From: a bacterium
GTDB lineage: Bacteria > Zhuqueibacterota > Zhuqueibacteria > Residuimicrobiales > Oceaniaggregativiventaceae
Length of the DNA stretch: 64,000 nt
NCBI GenBank assembly: GCA_029565675.1
Contig: JAKQNP010000023.1
Location: 1 to 64,000 of the forward strand
Reading direction: 5' to 3'
Positions 22,132-29,301 of this stretch are shown here, in pieces. Every line of letters starts with the position of its first letter. The stretch's first letter is position 1. Below the pieces are notes generated by a model. The model did not search any database. It had not been told where the DNA came from and saw nothing but the letters and a program-made list of their open reading frames with translations. Both the position numbers and the translations under genes were made by a program.

Positions 22132-22893
22132 ATGCTTGCACAGCAATGGTTGGCCAACACCAGGCAGGTCATCGAGAGGATTGAAAAAACACAAATGCCA
22201 AATATCCGCCGGGCAGCTGAGGCCATGGCGGAAACAATTGCTCAGGACCGCTGGGTGCACACCTTTGGCTGCGGTCATGCCACACTGCCAATCGAAGAGA
22301 TGTACCCCCGCATCGGCGGCTTTGTCGGTTTTCACCCGATGATTGAAATACCTTTGTCGTTTTTCACCCATATCGTCGGCGAAATGGGCGTACACCAATT
22401 CGTTTTCCTCGAACGGGTAGAAGGCTATGGTCAGGAAATCATGAAAAGCTATAATTTTGACCGGCGGGACACCATGTGGCTCTTTTCCCACTCCGGGATC
22501 AACAATGTCAATATCGACATCGCGCTGGAGGCAAAAAAAATCGGCATGACGGTGGTGGCCATGGGATCAGCCGATGAGTTCAAAGACAAACCGACTCGGC
22601 ACTCATCGGGCAAACGGATTTTTGAGATTGCAGATATCGTGGTCGACACTTGCGTGCCGGCACAGGATGCCAGCGTACCGCTGAAAAATCATGTCGATCG
22701 AATCGGACCGGTCTCAACGATGGCGTTTACCACTGTGGTGTGGATGACGATTTGCACGGTTGCGGAAATTTTGGTCGAACGCGGTGTCAAGCTCTACATC
22801 CACCCCTCGCACAATGTGCCGGGAGACACAACCGCCCGGCAAAGGCTCGATGCGGCCTTGGCAGAATACAAAAAACGCGTCGCCGGTGTCTAA
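22132..22893 (+). CDS. SIS-domain (sugar isomerase) protein, UPF0309-like
   Basis: A 253-residue single SIS-domain protein. The phosphosugar-binding loops are visible: WVHTFGCGHATLPIEEM near residue 41 and TMWLFSHSGINNVNIDIAL near residue 115, followed by KIGMTVVAMGS. The length and pattern match the UPF0309/YbbI-like group, related to N-acetylmuramate-6-phosphate etherase and phosphoheptose isomerase. It follows the ROK kinase and MFS genes on the same strand and ends with a 4-base overlap with convergent nagA. No nagB is present in the window, so it may act on an amino-sugar phosphate, either as an isomerase/deaminase-like enzyme or as a binding protein. That role is inference. Confidence 0.8.
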   Translation: MLAQQWLANTRQVIERIEKTQMPNIRRAAEAMAETIAQDRWVHTFGCGHATLPIEEMYPRIGGFVGFHPMIEIPLSFFTHIVGEMGVHQFVFLERVEGYGQEIMKSYNFDRRDTMWLFSHSGINNVNIDIALEAKKIGMTVVAMGSADEFKDKPTRHSSGKRIFEIADIVVDTCVPAQDASVPLKNHVDRIGPVSTMAFTTVVWMTICTVAEILVERGVKLYIHPSHNVPGDTTARQRLDAALAEYKKRVAGV

Positions 22894-24032
22894 GCGTCGT
22901 TCCGATAAACGATTTTCCCTTTGACGATCGTCATATAAACCGATTGATCAGGATTGAGCAACACCAGGTCGGCTTGCATGCCGACCTGAATTCCGCCAAT
23001 CTGATCTTGCATACCCAACAACCTGGCCGCATTTTCAGAACAGCATTTGGCGACCTCGGGCAAAGATGCGCCCGTAAAAGCGATCAAATTTTTGCGCATC
23101 TGTCCCAGACTCTGCGTTGTACCAATCAGTGTGCCGTCATCGACGTAGCGGGCTGCCCCACCTTCCGCACGATAGAGTTTGCCGTTGTAGCTATAGGTGC
23201 CGTCGGGCAGTCCCAAGCTGCGCATGCCGTCGGTAACCACAATCGTCCTCTTTGTTCCCAACAACCGATAGATCAAACGCACCATTGCCGGATGCAAATG
23301 GTGGCCATCGCAGATGACTTGTGCAGTGACACGCTCATCCTCGAACACCGCGGCAGCCGGACCGGGCAGGCGATGATGCAAGCCGGGCATGGCGTTAAAA
23401 AGGTGTGTCACATGACCAACACCTGATGCAAAAGCAGACCTGGCCTCTTCATACGTGCAGTTGCTGTGTCCCAAGGCAGGGATGACGGATCTTTGCAGCA
23501 GAGTATCGAGCAGCTCTTGGCTGTGCGGCAGTTCAGTGGCGATCGTCATCATGCGCAATGCGTCACCGCTCAGAGAAAATATTTCATTCAGTGCGGGTGC
23601 AGTGTATGGATAGATGCTATCGATGAGAATCCCACCGCGCTTTTCCGGATTGATAAACGGGCCTTCCAGATGCAGGCCGAGCAGCCTCGCTCCACCCAGG
23701 TCGGTACGAACATGATCGGCAACCATCCGGATATGGTCGTTGTCGTGCGGACGCACCATGGTTGTGGCCACAAATGCCGTGGTGCCCAAACCAGCCAGGG
23801 TGCGGGAAATCGTTTGCAAGGCAGCGAGCGTGCCGTCAAAAACATCTGCGCCACCGGCGCCATGAATATGCAGATCGATGAAACCCGGGACCAACCATTT
23901 CTCATACCCATCGACCACCGGTTCATCGGCTGCTGCAGTCAGTTCGTTGGCGATATCGGCAATCGTTTCGTGATCGATTCTCACATCCACATTCGCATCG
24001 AAACCGGATAGTCTAGCCTTTTTTATTATCAC
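22890..24032 (-). CDS. nagA: N-acetylglucosamine-6-phosphate deacetylase
   Basis: A 380-residue amidohydrolase converting GlcNAc-6-phosphate to glucosamine-6-phosphate and acetate. Visible motifs are DLHIHGAGGADVFDG near residue 52, LHLEGPFINPEKRGG (metal-binding Glu), ALGHSNCTYEEA and HLFNAMPGLHHR (metal-binding His), ICDGHHLHP, and TDGM with the catalytic Asp. The length is normal. The GTG start at 24032 is preceded by GGAAGGAGG. It is convergent with the SIS-domain gene (4-base overlap), so it is transcribed apart from the other cluster genes although functionally linked. Confidence 0.93.
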   Translation of the reverse strand: MIIKKARLSGFDANVDVRIDHETIADIANELTAAADEPVVDGYEKWLVPGFIDLHIHGAGGADVFDGTLAALQTISRTLAGLGTTAFVATTMVRPHDNDHIRMVADHVRTDLGGARLLGLHLEGPFINPEKRGGILIDSIYPYTAPALNEIFSLSGDALRMMTIATELPHSQELLDTLLQRSVIPALGHSNCTYEEARSAFASGVGHVTHLFNAMPGLHHRLPGPAAAVFEDERVTAQVICDGHHLHPAMVRLIYRLLGTKRTIVVTDGMRSLGLPDGTYSYNGKLYRAEGGAARYVDDGTLIGTTQSLGQMRKNLIAFTGASLPEVAKCCSENAARLLGMQDQIGGIQVGMQADLVLLNPDQSVYMTIVKGKIVYRNDA

Positions 24033-24149: not shown

Positions 24150-24755
24150 TCATCGATAATCTTTGGATCTGATAAAGACCAGAACAAGCGATTGCACCAC
24201 TGTCGACACCATCAAAATCAAAGAAGCCCACAGCAGATAATAGCTGACCATCGGGGTGAACGGAAACAGCGCAATAACCAGCAAAAAGAGCAGCAAATAT
24301 TCGCTGCGAAACGCAATCCGCCAGATGACTTTTTCGGTTGGATCGGGAACAGCACCGCGATGATTGGCATAAGCGACGATAAATGGTGGCAACAGAGTTG
24401 CAAAAAGAAGAGAAAAGAGCAACAGGTCGATGTGCAGGCGGCTTTGGTTAAATGGCAGGAAGAAAAAACTGGCGATCATCAATGCGTCGACGAACCGATC
24501 GACGATGCCGTCCCAGAATGCACCAAGAGCGGAAGCGCGGTTGGAAAAGCGGGCGACTTTGCCGTCGATCAAATCGCAAAGAGAGGCCAACAGGAAAAAA
24601 AACAACCCAGCCGCGATTTGGCCGTTTGCGATCATGCAAAAAGCAAAAACGGCGATCACCAGCGAAATGGTGGTCCAGGTATTGGGCGCTAAAAAAGAAA
24701 ATGTCCGTCCGACCCAACGCTCCAGTCGCGGCATGTCGATGAATTCTTTGATCAT
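24150..24755 (-). CDS. CDP-alcohol phosphatidyltransferase family protein
   Basis: A ~201-residue membrane enzyme with about six transmembrane segments. The full catalytic signature D-x2-DG-x2-AR-x8-G-x3-D-x3-D is present, running from DLIDGKVARF to GAFWDGIVDRFVD. Family members transfer a phosphoalcohol from a CDP-linked donor to an alcohol, making phospholipids or compatible solutes. The start at 24755 (MIKEFIDMPRLERW) places a short amphipathic helix before the first membrane segment; a longer frame from 24851 exists but adds unconserved sequence, and no site has a strong ribosome binding sequence. The acceptor (glycerol phosphate, inositol phosphate, serine) cannot be decided here. Confidence 0.83.
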   Translation of the reverse strand: MIKEFIDMPRLERWVGRTFSFLAPNTWTTISLVIAVFAFCMIANGQIAAGLFFFLLASLCDLIDGKVARFSNRASALGAFWDGIVDRFVDALMIASFFFLPFNQSRLHIDLLLFSLLFATLLPPFIVAYANHRGAVPDPTEKVIWRIAFRSEYLLLFLLVIALFPFTPMVSYYLLWASLILMVSTVVQSLVLVFIRSKDYR

Positions 24756-24903: not shown

Positions 24904-25860
24904 TCAATCCCCTTTTTTGGTGACAGCAAACCACCATCGATTGGTCATGATCTTTTGCTTGAAATGCCAACCGTTCTCTTGCAGCCAGGAAAAAATACGG
25001 TCACTTGACCAACCGGTCTGATCGCAATGCCTCCCCTGTTGTCGATGGATCTGGCGGCGAACGGCCAGAGAATCGCTATTCCAATCGCCCAACACCAAAA
25101 ATCCGCGGGGTTCGAGCAAATTGCTGCAGATCTGCAACAACGATTCGGTTTGGGCGATGTGGTGCAAAGCAGCCAGCACCACCACAGCGTTAAACGAATG
25201 AGGTGGAAAGTTGGCCTGCAAAATATCGATTTGCTGCAGATCGACTTTTTCATCGACGCCATAATGAACCGCATTTAACTGTGCCACATGCAAAGCCGCC
25301 GCAGAGACATCGATGCTGAACAACGGCTGCTTGCGCTGCGCCATTTCAATCGGCAACAATCCGTGACCTGTTCCAACGTGCAAAACGCGCTGAGCGTCGA
25401 CTGGGATCAGATCAGCCGCCTGCCGGTGAAAGGACAACAAATCAAGACCGGCCTGTGCAAAAAGCTCCAGACGCCGGCAATAAGCCGCATGATTTTTGCG
25501 CAGCAGATTATCGGCCATTGCGGTGTGTAAACCCTGAACACCCAGCAATGAACAGTGCCGTTTCCCTTCCGGCAGACCGTCCAGATAGGCGATCACATCA
25601 TCATCCGATAATTGGATGGCTTCCCGAAAGCTCTTTCCAATGGCCATTTCGGAAACCGCGCTGGTGGTGGCGATCGCCGCACCACAGCCATAGACCTTAT
25701 ATTTAAAATCGGTTATGATGTCGTTCTCGACTTGAATCCACACCTGAATAAAATCGCCACAATTCGGATCGCCGACCCGGGCCTGGCCGTCGGCATTTTC
25801 CAATTTGCCGACATTGCGCGGACGATTAAAGTGATCCATTACTTTTTCGCTATAATTCAG
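24904..25860 (-). CDS. IscU-like Fe-S scaffold fused to a class I SAM methyltransferase
   Basis: A ~318-residue fusion. Residues 1-115 are an IscU/NifU_N domain with all metal ligands kept: GDPNCGD (Asp31, Cys34), YGCGAAIATTSA (Cys59) and KRHCSLLG (His102-Cys103). Residues ~135-315 are a Rossmann methyltransferase with motif I VLHVGTGHGLLPIEMA, then FSIDVS and VVVLAALHHIAQ. The first ATG (25839) lacks a ribosome site and would remove the conserved NYSEKV segment of IscU. AGGAGAG (25876-25870) lies 9 bases before CTG 25860 and 6 before ATA 25863, and no ATG, GTG or TTG lies between the upstream stop and 25839. I therefore propose a non-AUG start overlapping the permease stop. It is the last gene of the metal-importer operon. 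Confidence 0.85.
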   Translation of the reverse strand: MNYSEKVMDHFNRPRNVGKLENADGQARVGDPNCGDFIQVWIQVENDIITDFKYKVYGCGAAIATTSAVSEMAIGKSFREAIQLSDDDVIAYLDGLPEGKRHCSLLGVQGLHTAMADNLLRKNHAAYCRRLELFAQAGLDLLSFHRQAADLIPVDAQRVLHVGTGHGLLPIEMAQRKQPLFSIDVSAAALHVAQLNAVHYGVDEKVDLQQIDILQANFPPHSFNAVVVLAALHHIAQTESLLQICSNLLEPRGFLVLGDWNSDSLAVRRQIHRQQGRHCDQTGWSSDRIFSWLQENGWHFKQKIMTNRWWFAVTKKGD

Positions 25861-26729
25861 TATGGGTTGCTCTCCTGGTATTCCTCAGGGCTTTGCTTTT
25901 GCAGTTTGCCGATGCGCATGCGCATTTTTTTTCTTTGCGGTGAAATCAACATGCTGATAAAAAAGAAGAATGTCGCGGTCAAGACGATTGTCGCACCGCT
26001 GGCGATATCGAGGACCGCTGATAAAAAAAGGCCGACCCAGCAAGAAACCACGCCGAACACGACCGATACAATCATCATGTTGCGAAAACGATCGGTCAAT
26101 TGTGCTGCAGACGCTGCAGGGATGACCAGCAGCGCGGAGACCAGGACGATGCCGACCGCTTTGATCGACAGCACGATCGTTAAAGCGAGCAGAGTCAAAA
26201 AGATAAAATTGAACCCGCGCACAGAAAGCCCGATTACGGCCGCCATTTCTGCATCAAAGGTGAGCAGCAAAAGTTCCTTGTAGAAAAAAACAATAACGGT
26301 AAAAACCACCAGTGCCAGAGCGACCATGGAAAGCAATTCAGTGCTGCTGATTGCCAGGATGTTGCCGAACAGATAGCCGAATAAATCGACCTGAACTCCT
26401 TTGAGCAAGCCGACAAGCAACACGCCAAAGGCCATGGTCGATGCAAAGAAAATGCCGACTGCGGCATCCTCGCGCAAGCGTTGCCTTTCACTGACCCAAC
26501 CAATCAACCAGGCAACCAGCAGACAAAAAACAACAGCGGTATGGAATGGATTGATGCGAAGAAAAAAACCGAGCGCCACGCCGCCGAATGAAGCATGGGA
26601 AATGCCTGCTCCGATGAAAGACATTCCGCGCAGAACGACATAGACACCGATTACGGCGCAGACCGCTCCGGTCAAGGTTGCTGCAATCAAAGCGCGCTGC
26701 ATAAAAGTAAACTGCAAAAGTTCCAGCAT
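25857..26729 (-). CDS. znuB: metal ABC transporter permease (ZnuB/TroC family)
   Basis: A 290-residue polytopic membrane protein with about eight hydrophobic helices. The family pattern is clear: GVYVVLRGMSFIGAGISHASFGGVALG near the N-terminus, SVRGFNFIFLTLLALTIVLSIKAVGIVL in the middle, and ALLVIPAASAAQLTDRF near the end. It forms the membrane channel of a zinc or manganese importer together with the ATPase and the lipoprotein encoded just upstream. I place the start at the ATG at 26729, 6 bases after GAGGGG; a GTG at 26735 is the alternative. The stop overlaps the likely start of the IscU-methyltransferase gene. Confidence 0.92.
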   Translation of the reverse strand: MLELLQFTFMQRALIAATLTGAVCAVIGVYVVLRGMSFIGAGISHASFGGVALGFFLRINPFHTAVVFCLLVAWLIGWVSERQRLREDAAVGIFFASTMAFGVLLVGLLKGVQVDLFGYLFGNILAISSTELLSMVALALVVFTVIVFFYKELLLLTFDAEMAAVIGLSVRGFNFIFLTLLALTIVLSIKAVGIVLVSALLVIPAASAAQLTDRFRNMMIVSVVFGVVSCWVGLFLSAVLDIASGATIVLTATFFFFISMLISPQRKKMRMRIGKLQKQSPEEYQESNPY

Positions 26730-26738
26730 CTCCACCCC

Positions 26739-27530
26739 TCAACCATCGGATTGGTTTTTGCGTGCGACAACCATATGCGGTACGGAACCGTGATGAAAAA
26801 AGAGGGCACCACAACCATACATGGCGTGCAACCCTTCTTCGGTCAGCACAGTTTCAGGCAATCCATGCGCAACGAGGTGTTTGTTCAGGCAAGCGACTGC
26901 AGTGACATAGCGCGGCACCACAGCGACATCATGGGTGACCAACAACAGGGTCAAACCGAGATTCGCGTGAGTGGTGTGCAACCAGTCGAAAAAGCTTTCT
27001 GCCACACCGACATCGAGCGCCGCAGTCGGTTCATCGAGCATCAGCACTTCCGGCTCCAGCGCAAGCGCACGCGCAATAAGAACCCGTTGCCGTTGCCCTC
27101 CCGAAAGCCGACCAAATTGCCGCTCAGCCAGATCTTCCAGATAGACAAGCTTGAGCGCCCGCTGAACCGCTTCATGGTCTTTTTTTCCCGGCGATTTTCC
27201 CAATCCAATTTTATGCGTTCGGCCGAGCATGACCACATCTTTCACGGCAATTGGAAATGAGAGGTCGAGTTGACTTTGCTGCGGTACATAACCGATTTTT
27301 TCCCGCAGCTTGCCGAGCCTTTGCGGATGACGGCCGAATACACTGACTTGGCCGCTGAAAGGCTTGGTCAATCCGAGAATTGTGCGCAAGAGAGTCGTCT
27401 TGCCAGAGCCGTTCGGACCGAGGATCCCGAGAAAATCTCCGCGGTTGACAGACAGGCTGATGTCTTCCAGAACGATCTTGTCCTGGTAAGCGACCGATAC
27501 TTGATTGAGTTCGATCAAAGAGTCTGACAT
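26739..27530 (-). CDS. znuC: metal ABC transporter ATP-binding protein (ZnuC family)
   Basis: A 263-residue ATPase with Walker A GPNGSGKTT (about residues 39-47), the ABC signature LSGGQRQR, Walker B EVLMLDEPT and the switch histidine in LLVTHDVAVV. The middle segment VPQQSQLDLSFPIAVKDVV is typical of the Mn/Zn ATPases. It drives the permease encoded 9 bases downstream. Its start overlaps the 3' end of the solute-binding gene by 16 bases, so the two are translationally linked. AAGGA lies 6 bases upstream of the ATG. Confidence 0.93.
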   Translation of the reverse strand: MSDSLIELNQVSVAYQDKIVLEDISLSVNRGDFLGILGPNGSGKTTLLRTILGLTKPFSGQVSVFGRHPQRLGKLREKIGYVPQQSQLDLSFPIAVKDVVMLGRTHKIGLGKSPGKKDHEAVQRALKLVYLEDLAERQFGRLSGGQRQRVLIARALALEPEVLMLDEPTAALDVGVAESFFDWLHTTHANLGLTLLLVTHDVAVVPRYVTAVACLNKHLVAHGLPETVLTEEGLHAMYGCGALFFHHGSVPHMVVARKNQSDG

Positions 27531-28411
27531 CTCGGTCCTTCTTTTAAAGCTTGATCGATATTGGCCAGATTTTGCCGCATCAGCGCAAGGTAATCACCCG
27601 TGCCCAAAGGATCAAGGGTTAAAACCCGCACGCCCGTCTCTGCAGCGATGGTATGGACAAGGGCGGGTGAAAACTGCGGTTCGCTAAAAATGGCGCGGGC
27701 TTGAACTCGGCGAATTGCCTGGATAACCTGTTGCAGATGGCGAGGCGAGGGTTCGCTGCCAGGATTGGGCAGCACCACCTGAGTCAATTCCAGACTGTAT
27801 TCACGGGTAAAATATTCCCAGGCCGGATGGACACAGATGAGGGAGCGGTGCGTCCATTTCTGTGCGTGTTTGCGGATGTCAATATCCAGTGTATCCAGAA
27901 GCGCGAGATAGTTTTGCGCATTTATGGCAAAATAAGCCGAGTCCGCTGGCGATATTTGTTGCAGAGCAGCGGCAATTTTTTCCACTTGCTGTCTGGCCAA
28001 CCGCGGATTCAGCCACACATGCGGATTGCCTGCCGCGTGGTCGTCGTCCATCAGGATTTCGATATCGCTCGCAGTCTCCACCACCAGCAGCGAATCGCTT
28101 GAAACCGCATCGATCAGATCATCTGCCCATGGTTCGAGACCGATGCCGTTCAGGATCAGCAACCGGCTGTGCGATGCAGAAACCATCATTTTCGGTGTCA
28201 GTTCAAAAGTGTGCGGTGAGGCGCCGGTCGGGATGAGAACCACAACCTCAACCCGTTCTCCGCCGACCTGACGGGCAAAATCAGCCAAAGGGTTGATACT
28301 GGCGAGAATGCGCAAACTTTCCGAATCGGTCTTTTGTTTTTGGCAACCGCCAAAAAGCAGTACCGATACAGCGACGAGAAAAATAACATAAAAACGCGCT
28401 TGCAGCTGCAC
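27515..28411 (-). CDS. znuA: metal ABC transporter substrate-binding lipoprotein (ZnuA/TroA family)
   Basis: A ~298-residue lipoprotein of cluster A-I. The signal ends in LLFGGC (lipidated Cys). Metal-binding positions follow the family: His in GASPHTFELTP, His in NPHVWLNP, His in HPAWEYF and an acidic residue near LTLDPLG at the C-terminus. Only a short, not His-rich, acidic loop (MDDDHAAG) precedes NPHVWL, so zinc and manganese both remain possible. I place the start at the GTG at 28411 because GGTGGAGG lies 5 bases upstream; the frame extends four more codons. It heads the operon with the ATPase, permease and IscU-methyltransferase fusion. A good promoter lies about 60 bases upstream. Confidence 0.91.
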   Translation of the reverse strand: MQLQARFYVIFLVAVSVLLFGGCQKQKTDSESLRILASINPLADFARQVGGERVEVVVLIPTGASPHTFELTPKMMVSASHSRLLILNGIGLEPWADDLIDAVSSDSLLVVETASDIEILMDDDHAAGNPHVWLNPRLARQQVEKIAAALQQISPADSAYFAINAQNYLALLDTLDIDIRKHAQKWTHRSLICVHPAWEYFTREYSLELTQVVLPNPGSEPSPRHLQQVIQAIRRVQARAIFSEPQFSPALVHTIAAETGVRVLTLDPLGTGDYLALMRQNLANIDQALKEGPRCQTL

Positions 28412-28470
28412 AAAGACCTCCACCAGTCAAGATCATTTTTCACCAATGCATGAATCGTTTAGGCAGGAAA

Positions 28471-28524: not shown

Positions 28525-29301
28525 TCAGCCCGGCGGTTTGCCTTTTCTGCGATCATGCATCAAGGCGGCATAAAAGCGTGATGACAGCAGACGGCTGGCC
28601 TTGGCCAGAATCGATAACCGATAGGGAAAGTGGATTTCCAGCTTTTCGCGCTGCAGTCCACGCAGGATGATGCGGGCGGCCTGATCTGAATCGAGGAGAA
28701 AAGGCATGTGAAATTGGTGGTTGGCGGTCATCGGGGTGCGCACAAAGCCCGGCGAGATGATCGTCACACCTATACCGCTTTGCCATAGATCCAGCCGCAT
28801 ACTCTCGGCAAAAACAGACAAAGCCGCCTTGCTGGCGGCATAATCTGCTGAGCTTGGCATGCCGCGATAGCCGGCCAAACTGGATGTCACGGCAATCCAC
28901 CCGCTCTTTCTTTTCATCATGCCGGGCAAAAAAAGCTGTATCAATTTCACGACAGAAAAAAAATTGACTTGAAACAACTCCTCGATTTTTTCCATATCGA
29001 TCGCTTGAGCAGAAAAACCACTGCTCATACCGGCATTGAGGATGAGAAGTTCCGGAGTGATGGAAGACTTGACGAGTTCATCGCCAAGACGCTCGATGTC
29101 GGCAGGGTTGGCCAAATCGATGGTCATCGCCAGATGCGATCCTTGGGCAGCCGGCAGATCGGCGGCCATCGCTTCGAGCACCTTTTTGCGTCGACCCAAA
29201 AGAATCAGACGGCTGCCGCGCGCCGCCAATTCGCGCGCCAGTTCGGCTCCGATGCCCGACGATGCTCCGGTCAACAACACTGTCTTGTCCGCAAAGTGCA
29301 T
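28525..29301 (-). CDS. short-chain dehydrogenase/reductase (SDR)
   Basis: A 258-residue classical SDR. It has the cofactor motif GASSGIGAELA near residue 14, the NAGMSSG segment near residue 94, a catalytic Ser in VTSSLAGYRG and the YxxxK pair in SADYAASKAALS. Segment MIDLANPADIERL around residue 60 fits an NAD(P)(H) enzyme of the DltE/short-chain acyl dehydrogenase type, and the C-terminus (FPYRLSILAKASRLLSSRFYAALM) suggests membrane association as in YqjQ/SDR7-like enzymes. The substrate is unknown. It is transcribed with the UPF0316 gene 9 bases upstream. Confidence 0.88.
   Translation of the reverse strand: MHFADKTVLLTGASSGIGAELARELAARGSRLILLGRRKKVLEAMAADLPAAQGSHLAMTIDLANPADIERLGDELVKSSITPELLILNAGMSSGFSAQAIDMEKIEELFQVNFFSVVKLIQLFLPGMMKRKSGWIAVTSSLAGYRGMPSSADYAASKAALSVFAESMRLDLWQSGIGVTIISPGFVRTPMTANHQFHMPFLLDSDQAARIILRGLQREKLEIHFPYRLSILAKASRLLSSRFYAALMHDRRKGKPPG

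Follow-up and report, generated by a model that had tools for sequence, protein, structure and literature searches.

A fused IscU-like scaffold and methyltransferase in candidate division KSB1, a candidate specialised Fe-S scaffold

A single gene in genomes of candidate division KSB1 encodes an IscU-like domain joined to a SAM-dependent methyltransferase (MT), and this fusion is a real single protein. Judging from its sequence and gene neighbourhoods, we consider it fairly probable that this protein acts as a specialised scaffold for Fe-S clusters. It would represent an IscU branch of its own, with an MT linked to it, that feeds Mrp-type carriers. The gene lies in the window, by which we mean the whole stretch of 64,000 nucleotides of contig JAKQNP010000023.1 that was analysed. 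It is IscU scaffolding in a new form and may point to an ISC branch that serves orange-protein-type complexes; an MT tied to Fe-S assembly would be unexpected.

The fusion gene and its two domains

On the minus strand, a single open frame runs from 25863 to the stop at 24904 and encodes an IscU-like half followed by an MT half.

24904..25863 (-): IscU-MT fusion gene, 318 aa counted from CTG, stop codon at 24904-24906
25495..25860 (-): N-terminal IscU/NifU_N domain, residues 1-122 (Pfam, match to 7c8m, Foldseek)
25753..25761 (-): ligands C34 and D36 (CGD; alignment)
25684..25686 (-): ligand C59 (YGCG; alignment)
25552..25557 (-): ligands H102 and C103 (RHCS; alignment)
25453..25557 (-): continuous helix, residues 102-136, joining both domains (AlphaFold2 model)
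24907..25413 (-): class I SAM-dependent MT domain, about residues 150-318 (Pfam, Foldseek)
25360..25374 (-): SAM-binding motif I (residues 163-167), reading GTGHG and intact in the window, lost in one relative (G002)

The preliminary description, made from the sequence alone, had proposed that an IscU domain with all of its metal ligands is joined to an MT carrying the motif VGTGHG, and Pfam profile searches of both halves agree. The N-terminal half belongs to the NifU_N family (PF01592; residues 3-121, 1e-34, 119.9 bits against a cut-off of 22). Its closest solved relative is the IscU 7c8m (2.9e-36), TM scores (target) are 0.84-0.93 for most of its best Foldseek matches to IscU structures, and its identity to solved IscU reaches about 49%. 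All five metal ligands (C34, D36, C59, H102 and C103) are invariant in the alignment of the twelve fusions that we identified. LPPVK, the IscU motif read by HscA, is absent; at this position, just before H102 and C103, the window has LPEGK and most fusions have IPENK. The residue after C59 is usually Gly, but it is Trp (FGCW) in six fusions (L006, L008, L009, L010, L012 and L014) and Pro (FGCP) in the separate IscU proteins of the LLG type described below.

The C-terminal half matches Methyltransf_11 (residues 160-257, 1.9e-13) in Pfam and class I MTs in Foldseek. Its motif I reads VGTGHG in the window, and the acidic residue after strand 2 (D184) is also present. An AlphaFold2 model of the fusion protein (pLDDT 91.8, pTM 0.81) predicts both the IscU fold and the MT fold.

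The single frame without a stop, also claimed earlier, is confirmed by the open frame at 25863-24904 and by in-frame fusions in eleven other genomes. These are full-length, have no internal stop and share 39-61% identity with the fusion of the window. The suspicion that the closest relatives might carry the two domains as separate genes, with a frameshift artefact here, is thus contradicted, and the fusion is not an assembly artefact because those eleven genomes hold full-length in-frame fusions. A frameshift, misassembly or chimeric join of two genes is refuted by the identical in-frame join in eleven other assemblies, and we give it a vanishingly small probability.

Distribution, gene neighbourhoods and origin

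The full-length fusion occurs in 12 of the 63 genomes of the class, and the other genomes of the 82-genome phylum set yielded no fusion beyond these twelve. None was found in 195 Myxococcota genomes, and viral contigs held no relative. Among 84,980 species' genomes, fusions appeared only in KSB1-type records, in a scan by exact match to short patterns that divergent fusions could escape. A literature search, with subscription papers outside its reach, returned no report of such a fusion. The fusion with an MT is unusual, as initially supposed, and within the genomes covered it was found in 12 KSB1 genomes. That IscU is usually a separate protein also holds here: the window's genome encodes, at another site, an ordinary IscU with a cysteine desulfurase gene beside it. 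An ordinary IscU was also seen in 8/12 fusion genomes, and the remaining four are 73-88% complete.

The usual neighbours of the fusion gene are genes of the Mrp, NifX and MinD-ferredoxin types. It adjoins a gene for an Mrp/ApbC-type Fe-S carrier ATPase in seven of the twelve fusion loci, and several loci also include NifX-like (Nitro_FeMo-Co), MinD-ferredoxin, DUF5320, DUF89, CGGC and sigma54-regulator genes. At least one core gene of the Mrp/NifX/MinD-ferredoxin type is present at 7/12 fusion loci and at 0/12 control loci (Fisher p = 0.005), the controls being seven loci of canonical IscU and five fusion-free znu loci, which are few and not phylum-matched. The same gene types occur at 15/28 loci with a separate MT, against 0/12 of these controls (Fisher p = 0.001). 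In one KSB1 locus (L034), a protein with Mrp and Nitro_FeMo-Co domains (MrpORP-type) is encoded directly upstream of the fusion gene. The window locus has none of these core genes alongside, and they sit on other contigs of the same genome; another fusion genome (G029) has no NifX-like gene detectable by PF02579. Two of the twelve fusion loci show neither an Mrp-type nor a znu setting. Two MinD-ferredoxin ATPases appear to share one open frame in the window's genome (about 612 aa; L150 8641-10479), and the same was seen in G105 (615 aa; L157 4066-5913).

In bacteria other than KSB1 the MT is encoded by a gene of its own (about 200 aa), found in Omnitrophota, Acidobacteriota, Myxococcota, UBP9 and others. 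It is uncommon: at the threshold used, it was present in 20/297 genomes of an Acidobacteriota sample and in 3/379 genomes of a sample of the phylum of G104. The MT, an LLG-type IscU and IscS are encoded by adjacent separate genes in four loci (L085; L079 and L082, both UBP9; L081), which represent two lineages only. In these split loci the MT precedes IscU, opposite to the order in the fusion, and their IscU shares VGDP, TDDDV and HCSLLGV with the fused domain. In Myxococcales (L085/L157), the order is sigma54 regulator, NifX genes, MinD-ferredoxin, MrpORP-type, MT, IscU, IscS, DUF89 and radical SAM. The contig of L081 is labelled Burkholderiales, its MT-IscU-IscS genes are close to those of UBP9, and it is perhaps wrongly binned. 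Other joins of this MT were also observed. An Acidobacteria genome encodes the same MT type behind a peptide deformylase in one open frame (L080 9098-10615). In L190, L191 and L192 the C-terminus of the MT is fused to another domain (NWLAHDGCWFLAAE...), and in L196 the domain NWLAHDGCWFLAAE... and the MT are encoded by two frames of one small contig.

Phylogenetic analysis places the fused IscU domains in one clade (support 95/94) that groups with separate LLG-type IscU of other bacteria, and the fused domains together with three LLG-type IscU are split from 26 canonical IscU at 100/99. The fused MTs likewise group as one clade (98/97), in which the members linked to znu genes have long branches. 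One ancestral fusion in KSB1 is the simplest account of these trees. We envisage that two genes, found elsewhere side by side as MT-IscU-IscS, fused once in the KSB1 ancestor.

The zinc importer operon and the fate of the methyltransferase half

In the window, the fusion gene sits within a run of genes on the same strand, in the order SDR, znuA, znuC, znuB, fusion gene, CDP-alcohol phosphatidyltransferase and nagA.

28525..29301 (-): SDR gene, a conserved part of the run, upstream of znuA
27515..28423 (-): znuA, substrate-binding protein of the zinc type (alignment)
26739..27530 (-): znuC, ATPase
25857..26735 (-): znuB, ABC-3 permease, whose stop overlaps the fusion start
25870..25876 (-): Shine-Dalgarno-like AGGAGAG, 6 nt before ATA (read from the sequence)
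24150..24755 (-): CDP-alcohol phosphatidyltransferase after the fusion gene, with the conserved start MIKEF
22890..24032 (-): nagA, farther downstream and also part of the conserved run

The fusion gene had been described as the last cistron of a zinc/manganese importer operon. It is not the last, since the CDP-alcohol phosphatidyltransferase gene and nagA come after it on the same strand and remain with it in relatives. As for the metal, zinc stands and manganese does not: ZnuA of the window aligns best with the zinc-binding proteins 2ov1 and 1pq4, matching their three His positions with His and the fourth position with Asp, and the importer is predicted to be of the zinc type rather than the manganese type. 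The NCBIfam cut-offs for ZnuA/AztC are not reached by this protein.

Translation probably starts at ATA (25861-25863) or CTG (25858-25860), overlapping the stop of znuB, because residues of the conserved YSEKV segment lie upstream of the ATG at 25839, relatives have ATT (the sister species G001) or ATG (G002) at the position of the ATA, and AGGAGAG is suitably placed. The ATG at 25839 was rejected as the start, given that the YSEKV residues, typical of an IscU start, are encoded upstream of it. Non-AUG initiation is possibly fixed in one genus (ATA in the window, ATT in the sister species; window 25858-25876, L004 and L013).

The fusion gene lies inside a znu operon only in the window's family, in three genomes. 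These three fusions form one clade in the IscU tree (98/91), and its sister is the fusion of G015, a member of the same order whose gene adjoins an MrpORP-type gene. Within the window's family, G003 has the run SDR-znuACB-CDP-OH-PT-nagA without the fusion gene, and G015 has a znu operon that does not contain it. Insertion into the znu operon is favoured over an ancestral link because the znu operons of G003 and G015 lack the gene and because the znu-linked clade is sister to the MrpORP-linked G015; alternatively, the fusion gene may have been lost from the znu run of G003.

The two halves have not diverged alike. Mean identities for IscU and MT are 68.5 and 47.2 among fusions outside the znu clade and 74.4 and 32.2 within it, and dividing MT identity by IscU identity gives 0.43-0.44 when a pair involves the znu clade and 0.69 elsewhere. 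In G002 (L013), VASFEAL replaces GxGxG and motif I is lost, with the IscU half intact. These comparisons point to weak constraint on the MT of the znu-linked lineage, or to a changed function. The loss of motif I in G002 and the fast evolution in the znu clade could also mean that the MT domain is not catalytic and serves as a SAM sensor or structural appendage, which we find improbable, considering that GxGxG and D184 are retained in 11/12 fusions and GxGxG also in the separate MTs.

The znu setting itself could be accidental, the gene having landed in this operon with a function that does not involve zinc. Such a chance insertion is compatible with a specialised Fe-S scaffold, and we regard it as a serious possibility, though short of an even chance. 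The presence of the znu operon with and without the gene inside one family and the decaying MT half of the znu-linked lineage speak for it; the position shared by two genera and the tight overlap with znuB in the window's genome speak against it.

The suggestion that the cistron couples metal uptake to Fe-S assembly fared less well; methylation of a metal-binding target, named as its alternative, is conjectural. With such coupling, the protein would work with the zinc importer, either holding zinc as an IscU-like chaperone when zinc is short or serving as a scaffold with its zinc/iron loading tuned to import. IscU-family sites bind zinc, the fusion start overlaps the znuB stop, and the same arrangement recurs in the three genomes of the family. 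Furthermore, leaving aside the window's family, 5/35 genomes have a ZnuA-family gene within 10 kb of the MT where 0.29 would be expected (p = 1.4e-5, or 2e-4 when two similar Acidobacteriota loci are counted once), in a rough estimate that assumes random gene order; there may be a real link between the MT-bearing cluster and metal import. Against coupling, G003, G015 and others have the same znu operon but not the gene, most of the fusions have no znu genes next to them and have Mrp/NifX/MinD-ferredoxin genes as their usual neighbours, and no Zur-like palindrome was found before znuA or before the whole run. We therefore think it unlikely that the protein works with the importer. A general association of the fusion with znu was rejected by the locus comparison, though ZnuA-type genes recur near the MT. 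Matches in a promoter and terminator scan were only about twofold over shuffled sequences and were given no weight. In some ZnuA-family proteins encoded near the MT (L196 1-948 and L208 13247-14227), several cysteines stand at positions where zinc-type proteins carry other residues, possibly reflecting a different metal specificity.

Proposed role and comparison with known systems

As a specialised Fe-S scaffold, the fusion protein would belong to an LLG-type IscU subfamily that serves Mrp/MrpORP, NifX-like and MinD-ferredoxin proteins, leaving housekeeping to the canonical IscU. By analogy with IscU chemistry, a cysteine desulfurase would deliver sulfur to C34, C59 and C103, and a cluster would form with the participation of D36 and H102. 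The cluster could then pass to the Mrp-type ATPase that is usually encoded next door, and from this ATPase to MinD-ferredoxin and NifX-like clients; transfer from Mrp to a client has been shown for the MrpORP of Desulfovibrio (PMC6345978). The MT, tethered by the helix, may methylate a protein or a small ligand that belongs to the same pathway. The gene would have moved into the znu operon in the window's family, with the IscU half conserved and the MT half under weaker constraint; because of this difference, the protein of this family probably serves mainly as a scaffold or as a holder of metal, produced alongside the zinc importer.

A broader and much more tentative reading is that a dedicated ISC branch (the LLG-type IscU, its own cysteine desulfurase and the MT) exists in anaerobes of several phyla and feeds MrpORP/orange-protein-type complexes, with methylation helping to build or deliver the cluster.

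Compared with the N-terminal scaffold of IscU/NifU (PF01592; TIGR03419 and TIGR01999), the fused domain has the same fold, the five ligands and the YSEKV/PRNVG start. It differs from IscU in having a C-terminal MT domain, in reading HCSLLG[IV] (hence LLG-type) in place of HCS[NV]LA, and in lacking LPPVK. It scores below the cut-offs of both equivalog models, with 100.5 bits against 192.4 for IscU (TIGR01999) and 147.3 against 187.9 for NifU_clost (TIGR03419). The MT half has the class I fold of the Methyltransf_11 type in common with CpaM (NF043040), UbiE/UbiG and DVU_1556, and differs from them in its own motifs, RxxxYxxxGYD at the start and EGKxH near the end. It scores below the curated cut-offs of CpaM, UbiG, UbiE and DVU_1556, and no family model names it.

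The closest parallel in gene content is the MrpORP/ORP complex of Desulfovibrio, in which MrpORP binds Fe-S clusters and hands them to Orp3-Orp4-Orp8 (PMC6345978). The available excerpt of that report lists no IscU or MT of this kind in the ORP complex, calls the maturation factors of the complex unknown and leaves open a reliance of MrpORP on the general ISC or SUF systems (PMC6345978). Candidates for both questions would be the separate IscU subfamily that occurs in such clusters, along with its own cysteine desulfurase, and the MT that is fused or adjacent to it. Mrp or MrpORP-type, NifX-like, MinD-ferredoxin and sigma54-regulator genes, the kinds known from the Desulfovibrio system, occur at several KSB1 fusion loci other than that of the window and at the split locus of Myxococcales, and the Mrp-Nitro_FeMo-Co domain order of the protein encoded in L034 is the layout of MrpORP.
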